Source: Bacteroidia bacterium (GTDB taxonomy: Bacteria > Bacteroidota > Bacteroidia > M30B66). Taken from it: a stretch of DNA of 64,000 nucleotides. Below, piece by piece: positions 26,264 through 44,313 of this stretch; the stretch's first letter is position 1, and every line of letters starts with the position of its first letter. The notes beneath the pieces are model-generated. The model was not told the origin of the DNA, searched no databases, and saw only the letters and a program-made list of their open reading frames with translations. The position numbers and the translations under genes are program-made. Where the stretch lies: positions 124,001 to 188,000 of the forward strand of contig JAGYKL010000003.1 of assembly GCA_018401705.1 (NCBI GenBank), read 5' to 3'.

Positions 26264-28350
26264 TAATTACTCACCCACTTCTTCACCAAACGGGAATTTC
26301 CGTTTTCAATAGTAATTAAATATATACCAGGATTTAATCTGGATTCTGATATGTCAGACAAATTAAATTGATAATCACCCGGTTGTTGCACACCCAGTTC
26401 TATAGCTCCAAGAAGTCTTCCAGAAATATCCTGTATTGAAATTTTAATAGCTTGTTTTTGCAATATAGAATAAGCCAAGGTAGCATCTGAATTTCCGGGA
26501 TTAGGGTATATGGAGATATTAGAATCTTCTATAACTAAATCATTTATCCCGATTGGCCCATCAACAATATTAATATCATCGATGTAAATATTGTTTCCAC
26601 CACCATCAATAAAGGTAAATCTTACCATTGCTGTTTGTTTTCCTGCCAACGGCGTAACACTAACGCTTTCTTCTCTCCATTGCGTTGTATTGGGAATCCA
26701 TGACGCTGATACATATCCTCCAGTGGTAGCTAATGCAGAGCCGTTTTTCTGAAATCTTCTTGTCCATGACCTTCCACAATCAAATGAAATCCACATTTCT
26801 AACTGGTCGGTATTGCTTGGTCCTCTTTGAGCGTGAGCTACGTTGAATTTTACCCTTGCAGGAGTTCCAACATATTGACAATTAATTACTGGAGAATAAG
26901 CGTGACTTACTGTGCCATCGGCAACTAACATATTATTATATATTAGTGAAGCTGTGCCTGAAGTAGATGCAGCAGTGCTTCTTGCTAAAGCATTATTATT
27001 TGTTGATTCAAATCTCCATGAGATATCAGAATAACCATTGTTTGGGAATCCTGTATTTTCCATTCCTTCAACAATTGGAGCTAGTAGTGGAGGATTATTA
27101 GTTACTATGGTAATAAAATCAGTTTTTGTTTTGGAGTTACTCCCTTGTGAGTTACTCGCAGTTAATGTAACAGGATATGTTCCTGGTTCAGCATACTGAA
27201 CACTTGGATTTTGATCACTTGATGTAGCAGGGTTACCACCAGGAAATGTCCAAGACCAAGACCATGTTCCATCAACATCAGCATTGTAACTTAAATCGGT
27301 GAAAATGATATCATTATTTGAACAGCTTTGATTGCTATTTGCTTGAAAATCAGCAATAGGGGAACAAATCTGAGGCGTCCCGTTAACTCCTGTAGCCTGC
27401 AAATTTGCTGAAGACCATAATTGATTTCTTCCTGCAGTGGAAGAAGTTATAGCAGCAATCATTCTTTCTTTTTGTCCTTCAGTAAACATGATGGCACAAC
27501 TAGAATAGTCCATGAAATTCTGGACATTATCAAGGCTTCCACAGGTGTTCTGACTTAGGTTGCAATTTTGATTTGCAACACCCAATGTATTTGGAGTGTC
27601 ATCAACATTGTCATCAATGTCGCAATTGTCAACTTCTCCTGGAGAATTAGATCCCCCCCAAGGGTGTCTCAAATTAAAGAAGTGACCTATTTCGTGAGTG
27701 AGTGTTCTTGCTGAGAAATTTGATCCATTTGAAGTTCCTATGCTTCCAAGCTGTTCGTGGAGGCAAACAATCCCGTCATCCTGCGCTGAAGGCGCAGATC
27801 CCGGTAAATAAGCATATCCTCCAGCTCCAAATGAAATTTTATCAACTACCCAAATATTAAGGTACTTATTTCGAGGCCAAGAAATCAATTCCTTAACGTT
27901 ATCGTCTGCTGCGAAAGTTAATTCAGAAACTGTGCGAGTAATTCCTTCAGTGCAGTTTCCACTTGGATCTATGCGAGCTAAACGAAATTCAAACTCAACA
28001 TCAGCTACAATGCCTTGAAAGGCGGAAATTACTGAGCTTTGATCTTCATTTTCCAGATTATAATCTTCATTGATTATCCTAACTGCATCTTCAATTTGTT
28101 CTTTGGAAATATTTTCTACTCCATAATTATGAATGACATGAAATACAACTGGAATAACACGTGTTACTCTTTCTCCTGTATTTTCAAATTGAGCCGTGTA
28201 AGACTCAAGTGCCTCCATTTCCTGTAAAAGTTCGGGGTGCTCAGCAAGAGCTTTATTAATGGCAAATGTGCTTCCGCATTCTAGGTTTTGAGCATTTAGT
28301 GATAAGATTGACGAAAGACCTAGAACAATTGCCAGTATTAATTTATTCAT
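26263..28350 (-). CDS. secreted M43 zinc metalloprotease with PKD domain, T9SS cargo
   Basis: A 695-residue protein: signal peptide (MNKLILAIVLGLSSILSLNAQ), M43 catalytic domain with TLTHEIGHFFNLRHPWGG near residue 217 (HExxHxxxxxH) and the Met-turn QNFMDYSSCAIMFTEGQKER near 275. A PKD domain follows near 335-410 (WSWSWTFPGGNPATS, VTLTASNSQGSNSKT), then a MAM/jelly-roll-like beta domain (about 430-590) and a type IX sorting domain (ISIYPNPGNSDATL, PGIYLITIENG). It is a probable secreted endoprotease and shares the catalytic layout of the protein at 20858, but has an added PKD module. Confidence 0.92.
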   Translation of the reverse strand: MNKLILAIVLGLSSILSLNAQNLECGSTFAINKALAEHPELLQEMEALESYTAQFENTGERVTRVIPVVFHVIHNYGVENISKEQIEDAVRIINEDYNLENEDQSSVISAFQGIVADVEFEFRLARIDPSGNCTEGITRTVSELTFAADDNVKELISWPRNKYLNIWVVDKISFGAGGYAYLPGSAPSAQDDGIVCLHEQLGSIGTSNGSNFSARTLTHEIGHFFNLRHPWGGSNSPGEVDNCDIDDNVDDTPNTLGVANQNCNLSQNTCGSLDNVQNFMDYSSCAIMFTEGQKERMIAAITSSTAGRNQLWSSANLQATGVNGTPQICSPIADFQANSNQSCSNNDIIFTDLSYNADVDGTWSWSWTFPGGNPATSSDQNPSVQYAEPGTYPVTLTASNSQGSNSKTKTDFITIVTNNPPLLAPIVEGMENTGFPNNGYSDISWRFESTNNNALARSTAASTSGTASLIYNNMLVADGTVSHAYSPVINCQYVGTPARVKFNVAHAQRGPSNTDQLEMWISFDCGRSWTRRFQKNGSALATTGGYVSASWIPNTTQWREESVSVTPLAGKQTAMVRFTFIDGGGNNIYIDDINIVDGPIGINDLVIEDSNISIYPNPGNSDATLAYSILQKQAIKISIQDISGRLLGAIELGVQQPGDYQFNLSDISESRLNPGIYLITIENGNSRLVKKWVSN

Positions 28351-31563: not shown

Positions 31564-31899
31564 TTAGCTCAGTAAACGGTCAATGTTTTCAAGGTAGTCT
31601 AAAGAATCGTCGACATAAAAATCAAGGTCTGGAACAATCCTTAATTGATGCCTTACTTTCTCTCCAAGGCGCTTCCTGATTTCTTTCTTTAATCCCTGAA
31701 TCTGGCCTAATAGTTCTTCGGGCTTTTCTACTTTAAACATGCTCAAATAAATCTTTGCATGCCCAAGATCGGGACTGATTCTAGCTGTTGTTACAGTAAT
31801 GAATGCTCCGTTAAATAAATTGCGACTTTCTTTTTGAAACAATTCTGCCATTTCTTTTTGCACTAGTCTTGCAACTTTCTTTTGTCTTGTACTTTCCAT
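31564..31899 (-). CDS. rbfA: ribosome-binding factor A
   Basis: A 111-residue KH-like protein that helps mature the 30S subunit and its 16S rRNA 5' end. Family blocks are visible: TRQKKVARLVQKEMAELFQK at the N-terminus, ITVTTARISPDLGHAKIYLS in the middle, and RKRLGEKVRHQLRIVPDLDF. I take the start at 31899 (MESTRQKK); the frame is open 12 codons upstream but those do not fit the family. It is co-directional with the permease gene, 7 bases away. Confidence 0.93.
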   Translation of the reverse strand: MESTRQKKVARLVQKEMAELFQKESRNLFNGAFITVTTARISPDLGHAKIYLSMFKVEKPEELLGQIQGLKKEIRKRLGEKVRHQLRIVPDLDFYVDDSLDYLENIDRLLS

Positions 31900-32036: not shown

Positions 32037-33860
32037 ATGCAACAACTGAAACGCTTGCTATCATACGTCAAGCCTGTTCACCATTATTTCCCTGAGTATT
32101 TTGTTTATACAATACTTGGAATTCTTTTCGGCTTGGTCAATTTTACAATGCTTGTTCCGCTTTTAAACCTTCTTTTTAATGAGGGTGGGCATGCGGCCGA
32201 TGTTGTAACTAAGCCCGAATTTTCATTCAGCATCTCTTGGATTACCGAAAGTTTTAATTACTACTTGAGTGATTTTGTGCAAACACAAGGAAAGCTTTAT
32301 GCTCTAGCATTTGTTTGTGTATGTATTGCCATAGCTACTTTATGCGCAAACTTATTCAGGTATCTGGCCAATCGGGTTATGGTGAGATTAAGGATGAACA
32401 TGCTCGAGCGAATCAGAAATCAGCTATATGATAAGATTGTTACTCAGTCAATGTCTTTTTACAACAGAATAAAGAAGGGGGAGCTTTTGTCAACTATGAC
32501 CGCAGATGTTCAAGAGATAGAAGGTTCGGTGGTAAGCTCATTTCAAAGCCTTTTGCGCGATCCTTTTGTTATCATAGCGTATTTTACGACCTTATTTTAT
32601 TTGTCGCCACAGCTTACGGTGTTTACCATTCTGTTTTTCCCAATTTCGGGTATTCTAATTTCTTCACTTGCTAGGAGGCTCAAAAAGAAGGGGTTTTTCA
32701 GCCAGGAGTATTTAGCGAGAATTGTACATCATACCGACGAAACAATTTCTGGAATTCGTATAATAAAGGCATTTGGGGCTTCCTCTCTTTTTAAGAAGAG
32801 ATTTGCTGATATTAACGGGAGTTTTAGCAAAGTAAGTAAGGAGCTTTTTAATCAGCGAGAGTTAGCATCTCCAATTTCAGAAATATTGGGAGTTTTAGTT
32901 ATTGTAACCGTGGTTATGTATGGTGGACATTTGGTTATAATCAATGAGCTTTCAGGTTCGGTTTTTATCACTTATCTGGCTTTATATTCACAGATTATGC
33001 AACCTGCAAAGAATATTAGTACAGCTATAACTAGTATGCAAAAAGGTTTCGCTTCAGCAGATAGAATCTTTTTAGTGCTTGATGAGGATGTTCAAGTTAA
33101 AGATCCTGATAGTCCTGTTAAGGTTGAAGAATTTAGCAAGTCAATAGAACTGTCGGATGTTAAGTTCGCCTATGGCGAGAAGGATGTTTTGAATGAAATT
33201 AACTTTTCGTTGAGGAAAGGGAACATGATTGCATTAGTTGGCAGGAGTGGTTCAGGGAAATCGACATTATCTGACCTTATTTTAAGGTTTTATGATGTTA
33301 CTGGTGGCTCTATTTCCATAGACGGGATTGATATAAGGAAAATGTCTCAGGATGATTTACGCTCAATGATTGGGTTTGTTAGTCAGGACCCTGTTATGTT
33401 TAATGATACGGTTTGGAATAACATTACAATGGGCGATCCTTCGGCTACGCCGGAAAGGGTTAAAATGGCTGCTGATAATGCCAATGCAACAGAGTTTATT
33501 TCAGGTTTGGAGGAATTATATGAGACGAGAATTGGGGATAGAGGCTCAAGATTAAGCGGAGGGCAGAAGCAAAGAATAGCAATAGCTAGGGCGATTTATC
33601 GAAACCCTCCTATTTTGATTCTCGATGAAGCTACTTCTGCCTTAGACACTGAGAGTGAACGTTTGGTTCAAGATGCAATTAGCAAGCTAATGGAAAGCAG
33701 GACATCTTTAGTCATTGCCCACCGATTATCTACAATTCAACATGCAGATGAGATTTTAGTGATGGATGAGGGTCAAATTCTTGAGCGTGGAAAGCATGAA
33801 GACTTGTTAAATTTGAAGGGTTTGTATTATCGCTTGCATGAAATTCAACATTTGAGTTGA
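32037..33860 (+). CDS. MsbA-like ABC exporter (fused permease and ATPase)
   Basis: A 607-residue half-transporter. Six membrane spans lie in residues about 20-320 and the nucleotide-binding domain about 345-600, with Walker A GRSGSGKST near 401, the signature LSGGQKQRIAIARAI, Walker B PILILDEATSALD and the H-loop IAHRLST. It works as a dimer and most resembles lipid flippases of the MsbA type, though drug or peptide export cannot be excluded. It stands alone, followed by tRNA-Asn about 106 bases downstream. Confidence 0.92.
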   Translation: MQQLKRLLSYVKPVHHYFPEYFVYTILGILFGLVNFTMLVPLLNLLFNEGGHAADVVTKPEFSFSISWITESFNYYLSDFVQTQGKLYALAFVCVCIAIATLCANLFRYLANRVMVRLRMNMLERIRNQLYDKIVTQSMSFYNRIKKGELLSTMTADVQEIEGSVVSSFQSLLRDPFVIIAYFTTLFYLSPQLTVFTILFFPISGILISSLARRLKKKGFFSQEYLARIVHHTDETISGIRIIKAFGASSLFKKRFADINGSFSKVSKELFNQRELASPISEILGVLVIVTVVMYGGHLVIINELSGSVFITYLALYSQIMQPAKNISTAITSMQKGFASADRIFLVLDEDVQVKDPDSPVKVEEFSKSIELSDVKFAYGEKDVLNEINFSLRKGNMIALVGRSGSGKSTLSDLILRFYDVTGGSISIDGIDIRKMSQDDLRSMIGFVSQDPVMFNDTVWNNITMGDPSATPERVKMAADNANATEFISGLEELYETRIGDRGSRLSGGQKQRIAIARAIYRNPPILILDEATSALDTESERLVQDAISKLMESRTSLVIAHRLSTIQHADEILVMDEGQILERGKHEDLLNLKGLYYRLHEIQHLS

Positions 33861-33919
33861 TTTATTTGATTGATAATCAGAGCGACTGTGTTTTTTTACA
33901 GAAATCTAACATTTTTCAT

Positions 33920-33950
33920 TTGCATGATGTCTTTAATCGCTGTATTATTG
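33920..33950 (+). promoter_or_regulatory. predicted promoter of tRNA-Asn
   Basis: TTG at 33920-33922, a 20-base spacer and TATTATTG at 33943-33950 match TTG / TAnnTTTG with one mismatch. The tRNA begins 17 bases after the -7 box. Confidence 0.55.
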
Positions 33951-33966
33951 CACCCGTTTTGAAAAT

Positions 33967-34040
33967 TCCTTCTTAGCTCAGCTGGTTAGAGCATCTGACT
34001 GTTAATCAGAGGGTCCTTGGTTCGAGCCCAAGAGAAGGAG
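33967..34040 (+). tRNA. tRNA-Asn (anticodon GTT)
   Basis: A 74-base cloverleaf: acceptor TCCTTCT/AGAAGGA, D-arm with GCTCAGCTGGTTAGAGC, anticodon stem TCTGA/TCAGA with loop CTGTTAA (anticodon GTT), T-arm CTTGG/CCAAG with TTCGAGC, and discriminator G. CCA is not encoded. The last 17 bases of this gene are repeated five more times in the array immediately downstream, and a strong terminator begins 9 bases after its end. Confidence 0.97.
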
Positions 34041-34048
34041 CAAAACAA

Positions 34049-34074
34049 AAGACCGCCCACAAGGCGGTCTTTTT
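34049..34074 (+). terminator. intrinsic terminator of tRNA-Asn (first array copy)
   Basis: Perfect 7-bp GC-rich stem GACCGCC/GGCGGTC (extended by A-T pairs), 5-base loop CACAA, then five T residues. It starts 9 bases after the tRNA and is the founder or best-placed copy of the repeated terminators. Confidence 0.92.
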
Positions 34075-34461
34075 CGTATAAGAGGGCGAAGTTCCCCGAG
34101 CTTGCCTCGGGGAGCCCAAGAGAAGGAGCAAACAAGACCGCCCACAAGGCGGTCTTTTTCGTATAAGAGGGCGAGAAGTTTACCCCGAGCTTGCCTCGGG
34201 GAGCCCAAGAGAAGGAGCAAAACTAAAGACCGCCCACAAGGCGGTCTTTTTCGTATAAGAGGGCGAGAAGTTCTCGAGCTTGCCTCGGGGAGCCCAAGAG
34301 AAGGAAAAGACTGCCTTTTAAAGGGCGTTTATCCGAGTGGGGGAGCCCAAGAGAAGGAGCAAAACTAAAGACCACCCACAAGGCGGTCTTTTTCGTATAA
34401 GAGGGCGAGAAGTTTACCTCGAGCTTGCCTCGGGGAGCCCAAGAGAAGGAGCAAAACTAAA

Positions 34462-34485
34462 GACCGCCCACAAGGCGGTCTTTTT
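34462..34485 (+). terminator. last intact terminator of the array
   Basis: The same stem GACCGCC/GGCGGTC at 34462-34480 followed by five T residues; no copy follows it. Any transcript reading through the array would end here. Confidence 0.85.
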
Positions 34486-34627
34486 CGTATAAGCTTTGAG
34501 TAGAAAAAGGATCCTGATGGTTATCGGCATCCAATAGCATCATTTAGCAGAGGGAGCAAAATTTGCTACATGATAATCAAAAAGAGACATTTGTTCATGA
34601 AGGTTAGCTTTCAGAAATATTAAATAT

Positions 34628-34641
34628 CCCTTTTCAAAGGG
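34628..34641 (-). terminator. weak hairpin downstream of the peroxiredoxin gene
   Basis: CCCTT/AAGGG with a 4-base loop lies 12 bases beyond the peroxiredoxin stop on the minus strand. Only a short AT-rich tail follows, so terminator activity is uncertain. Confidence 0.3.
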
Positions 34642-34652
34642 TTAAACAGTGG

Positions 34653-35309
34653 CTAAATCGACTTTTTTGCCAAATAGAAATCAACTTTTTCTAAAGTGTT
34701 GTCAGCGTTGCGAGCCTCCAGTTCAGAAAGAGTTTTTGGTGGAGGCACAATTACCTTATCACCTGGTTGCCAATTTAGCGGCATAGCAACTTTATGATTA
34801 TCGCTGAATTGCAAAGCTTTTAAGGCTCTAAGGATTTCATCCATATTCCTTCCCACGTTAAGTGGGTAATACATAATCAATCTGATTTTTTGAGCAGGAT
34901 CAATAAAAAAAACAGCCCTTACTGCAGCAGTCTCACTTTCATTTGGCATTAACATTCCAAATAATTTCGAAACTTTCATATCAATATCTGCAATGATTGG
35001 AAAGCTTAAGTAAACTCCAGTCTTCTCTCTAACATTATTCACCCAGGCAAGGTGACTGTGTATACTGTCGATGCTAAGGCCTATAAGTGCAGTGTTTAGT
35101 TCTTCGAATTCATCTTTTCTTAAGGCAAATCCGCTCATTTCTGTTGTGCAAACTGGCGTGAAATCAGCTGGATGTGAAAACAGAACTTTCCATTTCCCTT
35201 TTTCAAATTCAGAAAATTTAATTTTTCCTGTTGTTGTTACTGCATCAAAATCGGGTGCGATATCGCCGATTCTAGGCATGCTATTTAAAGCTTCATTTAT
35301 TTCCTCCAT
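34653..35309 (-). CDS. 1-Cys (Prx6-type) peroxiredoxin
   Basis: A 218-residue peroxidase that reduces H2O2 and organic hydroperoxides. The active-site motif is HPADFTPVCTTE with the peroxidatic Cys54. MPRIGDIAPDFDA at the N-terminus, SIDSIHSHLAWVNN in the middle and the C-terminal NWQPGDKVIVPPPKT are Prx6-group features. The long C-terminal extension and the lack of a resolving-Cys motif (VCP) set it apart from AhpC. It is transcribed alone. A TAATTTTG box on the minus strand at 35333-35340 lies 23 bases upstream of the start. Confidence 0.93.
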   Translation of the reverse strand: MEEINEALNSMPRIGDIAPDFDAVTTTGKIKFSEFEKGKWKVLFSHPADFTPVCTTEMSGFALRKDEFEELNTALIGLSIDSIHSHLAWVNNVREKTGVYLSFPIIADIDMKVSKLFGMLMPNESETAAVRAVFFIDPAQKIRLIMYYPLNVGRNMDEILRALKALQFSDNHKVAMPLNWQPGDKVIVPPPKTLSELEARNADNTLEKVDFYLAKKSI

Positions 35310-44078: not shown

Positions 44079-44313
44079 ATATGGAAATCTTAAATGATGT
44101 GAACTGTTGGGTTTTTTCACAAAAAAATTCTTGCCTGTTTACTATATATTGAACATAAAGGTTACAATCATTTGCCTCAAAAATTTCTATGCTAATTAAG
44201 TAATGCCTGAATTGTAAACATTTGAATATGTTCCAAAAAATAACATAGTCAAAATTCCATAAAATAAAAAAGTAAAATGCTAAACTTTTGGGATTTTTAT
44301 TAGCAATTAGAAC

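Follow-up and report, generated by a model that had tools for sequence, protein, structure and literature searches.

Tandem direct repeats right after a tRNA gene, each unit of which holds the 3' end of that tRNA, are known from the tyrT/tyrV-tpr locus of E. coli K-12 (rttR/rtT RNA, NC_000913.3). The units there are 178 bp long, and GGTTCGA and AATCCTTCCCCCACCACCA are parted by a hairpin-rich insertion. An array of the same plan lies behind a tRNA-Asn gene in the window, by which we mean the whole 64-kb stretch of DNA that was analysed. The tRNA copy begins at T-loop position 58 in E. coli and at position 57 in the window, and in both cases the T-loop is split by an insertion that bears a hairpin. 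The parallel with tyrT drawn in a preliminary description of this DNA is thus real and goes deeper than had been noted. The two arrays also differ. The E. coli units encode CCA and lack intrinsic terminators on the same strand (none was found on the tRNA strand of that array), whereas the window units are 88-92 bp long, carry the tRNA's own terminator in most cases and do not encode CCA.

SegB, a GIY-YIG nuclease of phages, cuts within tRNA genes, with RAWTSGAAC as an enriched motif, and is needed for the tandem amplification of a tRNA segment via homologous recombination (PMC13096335). Integrative elements leave attR-type fragments (PMC9897764, PMC4383910) that resemble the copies in the window in comprising 17-18 nt of a tRNA 3' end, starting in the T-loop and lying 3' of an intact tRNA; in contrast to these, the window locus has neither integrase nor cargo and is built of units in tandem that contain palindromes and the terminator of the tRNA. 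The palindromic repeats of REP/RAYT systems (PMC3733652) are, like the hairpins of the window, short, GC-rich and extragenic. However, the hairpin core of the window is not dispersed over intergenic regions but confined to units that contain a tRNA copy.

Anatomy of the tRNA-Asn array

The tRNA-Asn(gtt) gene, on which ARAGORN and Rfam agree, extends from 33967 to 34041 or 34040. On its 3' side, five extra copies of its last 16-18 bases follow in tandem. The 18-mer GAGCCCAAGAGAAGGAGC starts at 34024 (inside the tRNA), 34112, 34201, 34343 and 34435 and has no further match on either strand of the 64-kb window; the copy at 34290 is a 16-base version. With these starts, the units are 88, 89, 89, 53 (decayed), 92 and 60 (last, truncated) nucleotides long. 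Tandem Repeats Finder (TRF) reports a period of 89 with a score of 486, and the repeat family D1 has spacings of 85, 92, 142 and 92. The 18-mer matches, D1 and TRF thus bear out exactly the positions given in the preliminary description, including that of the copy at 34290, described there as one base short. The features, all on the forward strand, are as follows:

33919..33948 (+): promoter-like site of tRNA-Asn (TTTG ... TATTAT), of which the TATTATTGCACCCG part is conserved in the sister locus L005
33967..34041 (+): intact tRNA-Asn(GTT), 3' CCA not fully encoded (ARAGORN, Rfam)
34024..34111 (+): unit 0, the 3' end of the real tRNA, terminator 34047-34073, spacer, hairpin 34093-34113
34112..34200 (+): unit 1, copy of the tRNA 3' end (position 57 to end), terminator 34134-34156, hairpin 34183-34201
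34201..34289 (+): unit 2, copy of the tRNA 3' end, terminator 34225-34249, imperfect hairpin ~34271-34291
34290..34342 (+): unit 3, decayed, with deletions; 16 nt of the tRNA end, terminator and hairpin degraded
34343..34434 (+): unit 4, copy of the tRNA 3' end, mutation-weakened terminator 34367-34391, imperfect hairpin 34417-34435
34435..34494 (+): unit 5, last copy of the tRNA 3' end, terminator 34459-34483; the repeat stops at ~34494

A full unit consists of the tRNA end, a short A-rich spacer, the terminator GACCGCC..GGCGGTC-TTTTT, a second spacer and the hairpin CCCCGAG-CTTGC-CTCGGGG, after which the next tRNA end begins. Since the tRNA-derived part is 18 nt long and begins at T-loop position 57, the hairpin occupies the place of the T-loop. 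What is amplified in tandem here is a cassette that combines part of the tRNA, from T-loop position 57 to the 3' end, with the tRNA's terminator and in which a palindromic hairpin replaces the T-loop. By eye, the 24 nt 5' of the hairpin were also compared with the anticodon-T region of tRNA-Asn, with an unconvincing result.

Folding confirmed that most units carry the terminator and a GC hairpin, as had been proposed, with decay or weakening in units 3 and 4. Four of the terminator stems have folding energies between -15.4 and -17.2 kcal/mol; a mutation has reduced the stability of another, at 34369, to -10.8 kcal/mol, and the one at 34306 has decayed. The hairpins have energies of -13.9, -12.9, -8.6 and -9.9 kcal/mol, and the hairpin of unit 34290 is gone. 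The units differ among themselves: unit 3 has suffered many deletions and unit 4 has a mutated terminator stem, with compensation in neither. There is no annotated RNA or ORF in the array.

Similar arrays behind other tRNA genes

We searched a sample of 863 kb of the window's genome, containing 19 tRNAs, for tandem arrays with a period of at least 60 and found seven. Four of these begin at most 24 nt from the 3' end of a tRNA (tRNA-Asn, -Val, -Leu(taa) and -Leu(caa)). As the 400 nt behind each of the 19 tRNAs make up only ~0.9% of the sampled sequence, a chance association is excluded, and the genome is therefore generally prone to tandem growth 3' of its tRNAs. The unit of the tRNA-Val array is composed of GTTCGAATC, the hairpin GCGAGCTTGCCTCGTG, TTGCTCCCAC and a terminator. 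The arrays behind tRNA-Leu taa (L057) and tRNA-Leu caa (L064) have units of ~72-73 bp in which a terminator-like sequence is repeated, with no recognisable tRNA part.

At tRNA-Asn, the sister genome (G001) has a single, older unit with the hairpin TCCCGAGCTAGCCTCGGGA and a degenerate tRNA end, compared to the five extra copies in the window. The gene order upstream (ABC transporter) is kept in the sister locus L005; the sequence downstream of the array (34494-35309 in the window) differs, the peroxiredoxin of the window being absent there. The array thus marks a break in synteny. Elsewhere in the family, tRNA ends repeated in tandem and accompanied by terminators were found behind tRNA-Cys in genome G003 and behind tRNA-Arg (two extra copies) and tRNA-Ser in G005, where tRNA-Asn is followed by one hairpin-split copy. 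None of the 31 tRNAs tested in G006 has copies of its end behind it. The arrangement had been called new in this phylum, a view that no longer holds, as it recurs at several tRNAs of the family and, together with GIY-YIG genes, in several phyla.

The points at which the copies begin fall into two classes, which were counted on copies that lack a GIY-YIG gene. A start at position 57/58 is found in the tRNA-Asn array of the window, tRNA-Cys of G003, tRNA-Arg and tRNA-Ser of G005, and tyrV of E. coli, and a start at 65/66 in the tRNA-Val array of the window's genome and at two tRNA-Asn loci. Tandem arrays of tRNA ends, so far a lone curiosity of E. coli, thus emerge as a pattern that recurs and whose breakpoint is fixed (T-loop 57/58 or 65/66).

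A search of 60 genomes for the 13-nucleotide core of the hairpin, CGAGCTTGCCTCG, gave seven exact matches. Of these, four are in the window array, one is in the tRNA-Val array of the same genome, and two are in an element of the sister genome that combines tRNA-Met with a GIY-YIG gene (G001:C3). In these 60 genomes, all seven are confined to this genus and lie inside units with a tRNA copy. We considered that the hairpin might be a dispersed REP-like element and rejected this, as GC palindromes occur about once per 11 kb and the core only in tRNA-copy units.

GIY-YIG genes linked to tRNAs

At the tRNA-Met locus of the sister genome, the tRNA is followed by a terminator, a GIY-YIG ORF, a copy of the 3' half of tRNA-Met, a tRNA end, a terminator and a second GIY-YIG ORF, and it is the 3'-half copy that is split by hairpins carrying CGAGCTTGCCTCG. 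In the window's own genome, a tRNA-Met gene (L164; G000:C89, 103693-103767, minus strand) has five tandem units, each with a terminator, a GIY-YIG ORF and a hairpin-split tRNA-Met copy. These ORFs, one of which lies at 103441-103623, decay progressively along the array through many small deletions, which indicates a route to arrays without a GIY-YIG gene. The proteins of the tRNA-Met loci in both genomes match the Pfam GIY-YIG family. On contig G000:C4, tRNA-Met (L044) has an intact GIY-YIG gene at 28064-28273, directly 3' of it, with no tRNA copy after the gene; its product is 66% identical to the protein of the sister genome.

A homology-based scan of 84,980 species genomes for this family yielded 65 loci. 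In 40 of them a tRNA on the same strand lies at most 500 nt upstream, a figure that describes this GIY-YIG family rather than GIY-YIG proteins overall, since the query was taken from tRNA-linked genes. One locus has a tRNA on the opposite strand, and at none of the 65 was a tRNA found 700-2500 nt upstream. The linked tRNAs comprise Met, Arg, Ser, Gln, Asn, Asp, Thr, Phe, Val, Leu, Lys and Ala, and the hosts belong to Bacteroidota, Chlorobiota/Ignavibacteria, Acidobacteria, Cloacimonadota and others. Tandem arrays of tRNA ends are thereby tied to a chromosomal nuclease family that adjoins tRNAs of many isotypes.

A tRNA copy follows the GIY-YIG ORF in 25 of 37 testable loci, two of these (L117, L127) probably being ordinary neighbouring tRNAs, and is absent in the remaining 12; the exact tRNA 3' end is kept in 20 of 37. 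The copy is usually split by a hairpin and accompanied by a terminator. Palindromes beyond those of shuffled sequences are present at 23 of the 37 loci, and 11 have more than one GIY-YIG copy. By manual assignment, the palindromes (TCCCG..CGGGA, TCCGCCGCGGCGGA, CCCCGATAGCTATCGGGG) fall within the anticodon arm, variable region or T arm, or within two of them; at many loci the hairpin is within the anticodon arm and the T-loop is intact. Five loci (L104, L105, L107, L109, L118) have the reversed order, with the split copy first, then GIY-YIG and the real tRNA downstream. Between tRNA-Met, -Arg and -Ser, the GIY-YIG proteins are ~66-68% identical. The few cases available are suggestive of a break position that tracks the nuclease subtype, with the T-loop used in L099-L103 and the anticodon arm in most tRNA-Met elements.

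In T-even phages, free-standing GIY-YIG homing endonucleases of the SegB type are likewise associated with tRNA genes and with the amplification of tRNA segments in tandem (PMC13096335), as we propose for the present family. The elements described here differ from that system in being chromosomal, in containing partial, hairpin-split tRNA copies and not full tRNA genes and, in the case of the window array, in having no nuclease gene. They were not found in viral contigs, where no relative of the GIY-YIG family could be confirmed, and we thus rejected a phage origin of the family. In the open-access full-text literature we found no account of chromosomal elements that combine a tRNA-linked GIY-YIG gene with hairpin-split copies of the tRNA, which is not proof of novelty.

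Origin of the window array

With these elements the window array shares a hairpin-split tRNA copy and the tRNA's terminator, on the same strand and directly 3' of the tRNA. It is a member of a recurring class of hairpin-split tRNA copies behind tRNAs, many members of which carry a small free-standing GIY-YIG gene. We consider it somewhat more probable than not (roughly 55%) that it is a relative of the tRNA-linked GIY-YIG elements which lacks the GIY-YIG gene and has grown by break-induced or unequal recombination. By analogy with SegB, a nuclease of this GIY-YIG family, encoded formerly at this locus or else elsewhere in the genome, would cleave within tRNA genes or close to them. Recombinational repair, in which the repeated tRNA ends and terminators pair with one another, would then duplicate the segment in tandem. 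The hairpin would make the copy useless as a tRNA and perhaps also as a nuclease target. Now that the locus is without a nuclease gene, its units would expand and decay by unequal recombination and deletion. We take the reverse complement of the SegB motif, GTTCSAWTY, to be T-loop sequence.

A profile search of 33800-35000 of the window in six frames gave no GIY-YIG remnant in or near the array, and the link to the nuclease is thus drawn from the hairpin and the architecture that they have in common. Several observations count against the nuclease model. The tRNA-Val copies keep the motif GTTCGAATC, with which a role of the hairpin as a shield against a SegB-like cut is inconsistent; many GIY-YIG loci have their hairpin in the anticodon arm and an intact T-loop; 12 of the 37 GIY-YIG loci have no tRNA copy; and the tRNA-Leu arrays contain no recognisable tRNA sequence.

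Ordinary slippage during replication or unequal crossing-over between short repeats could be enough to produce the window array, with no nuclease involved and with the extra terminators tolerated or mildly useful as insulation. Generic recombination would suffice for this, the units of the window are decaying, and the tRNA-Leu genes have terminator arrays of the same tandem kind even without a tRNA part. Growth by unequal crossover, as considered in the preliminary description, is indeed plausible and is supported by the single unit in the sister species, by the decaying copies and by the arrays at several tRNAs. However, purely neutral growth leaves unexplained why long-period arrays cluster at tRNA 3' ends, why five independent sets of copies all begin at T-loop position 57/58 and why the same hairpin core is found at tRNA-Asn, -Val and -Met sites and nowhere else in the 60 genomes. 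We therefore think it rather unlikely that such growth is the whole explanation.

The tandem plan shared with E. coli tyrT and the stable fold of each unit (z -3.3) would also fit an operon of the rtT type, in which the array is co-transcribed with tRNA-Asn and processing yields stable small RNAs with a tRNA-like 3' end. The release of such RNAs had been suggested before and is weakly supported. However, a strong intrinsic terminator follows ~10 nt after the tRNA and others are present in most units, so read-through into the array should be rare; the E. coli array has none on this strand. In addition, no forward promoter-like site was found within the array, the decay of terminators and hairpins in units 3 and 4 is uncompensated, and the sister has a single degenerate unit. 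An RNA operon is thus improbable, and the data suggest that the array is not a new RNA gene but a trace left where DNA was broken and copied again at tRNA genes.

Slightly less probable still are tandem attachment-site fragments left by a tyrosine integrase that integrates into the T-loop. Recombination by such integrases takes place in the T-loop and leaves behind 3' fragments of the tRNA (PMC1762012, PMC4383910), and copy starts at 57/58 would fit. However, the neighbours of the array are solely housekeeping genes (ABC transporter, peroxiredoxin), no integrase or cargo lies between the repeats, and an integrase domain is absent from the array-carrying contigs of G000, G003 and G005; units of just 88-92 bp containing the tRNA's own terminator do not suit this origin, and the hairpins would remain unexplained. 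An assembly artefact, conceivable in a metagenome-derived draft genome of 95 contigs, is hardly credible, as the units carry distinct differences, the array sits on a 227 kb contig, tRNA-Asn of the sister genome is followed by a unit as well, and similar arrays occur elsewhere, including the complete E. coli K-12 genome.

The window array is a variant of the rtT-type array that is probably related to a widespread class of tRNA-linked GIY-YIG elements undescribed in the open literature. More tentatively, and with somewhat less than even confidence, we propose that these are minimal mobile elements present in several phyla. They would consist of a GIY-YIG gene behind or before a tRNA and a tRNA copy disarmed by palindromes in the anticodon and/or T arm; they may move from one tRNA type to another, multiply in tandem, shed the nuclease gene and leave behind arrays like that of the window, the E. 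coli rtT repeats being a related footprint. If the link to the nuclease is true, the rtT repeats would gain a testable origin, and bacteria would have both a new minimal mobile element associated with tRNAs and a counterpart of the SegB-driven amplification in phages.

Some further repeats were seen in the course of the analysis. Behind tRNA-Cys of the window's genome (L059, 1585-2075) a short repeat of the type TCGACAAGCTCAGGGGGACTCAAAAT occurs more than 12 times, and its first copy forms the terminator hairpin of this tRNA, CCCCTGAGCTTGTCGAAGGGG. Directly 3' of tRNA-Arg cct in G003 (L246), there are AT-rich tandem and inverted repeats of ~130 bp. In the window itself, TRF also reports two short tandem repeats with a period of 24 (31820-31883 and 44231-44278), which are unrelated to the tRNA-Asn array.
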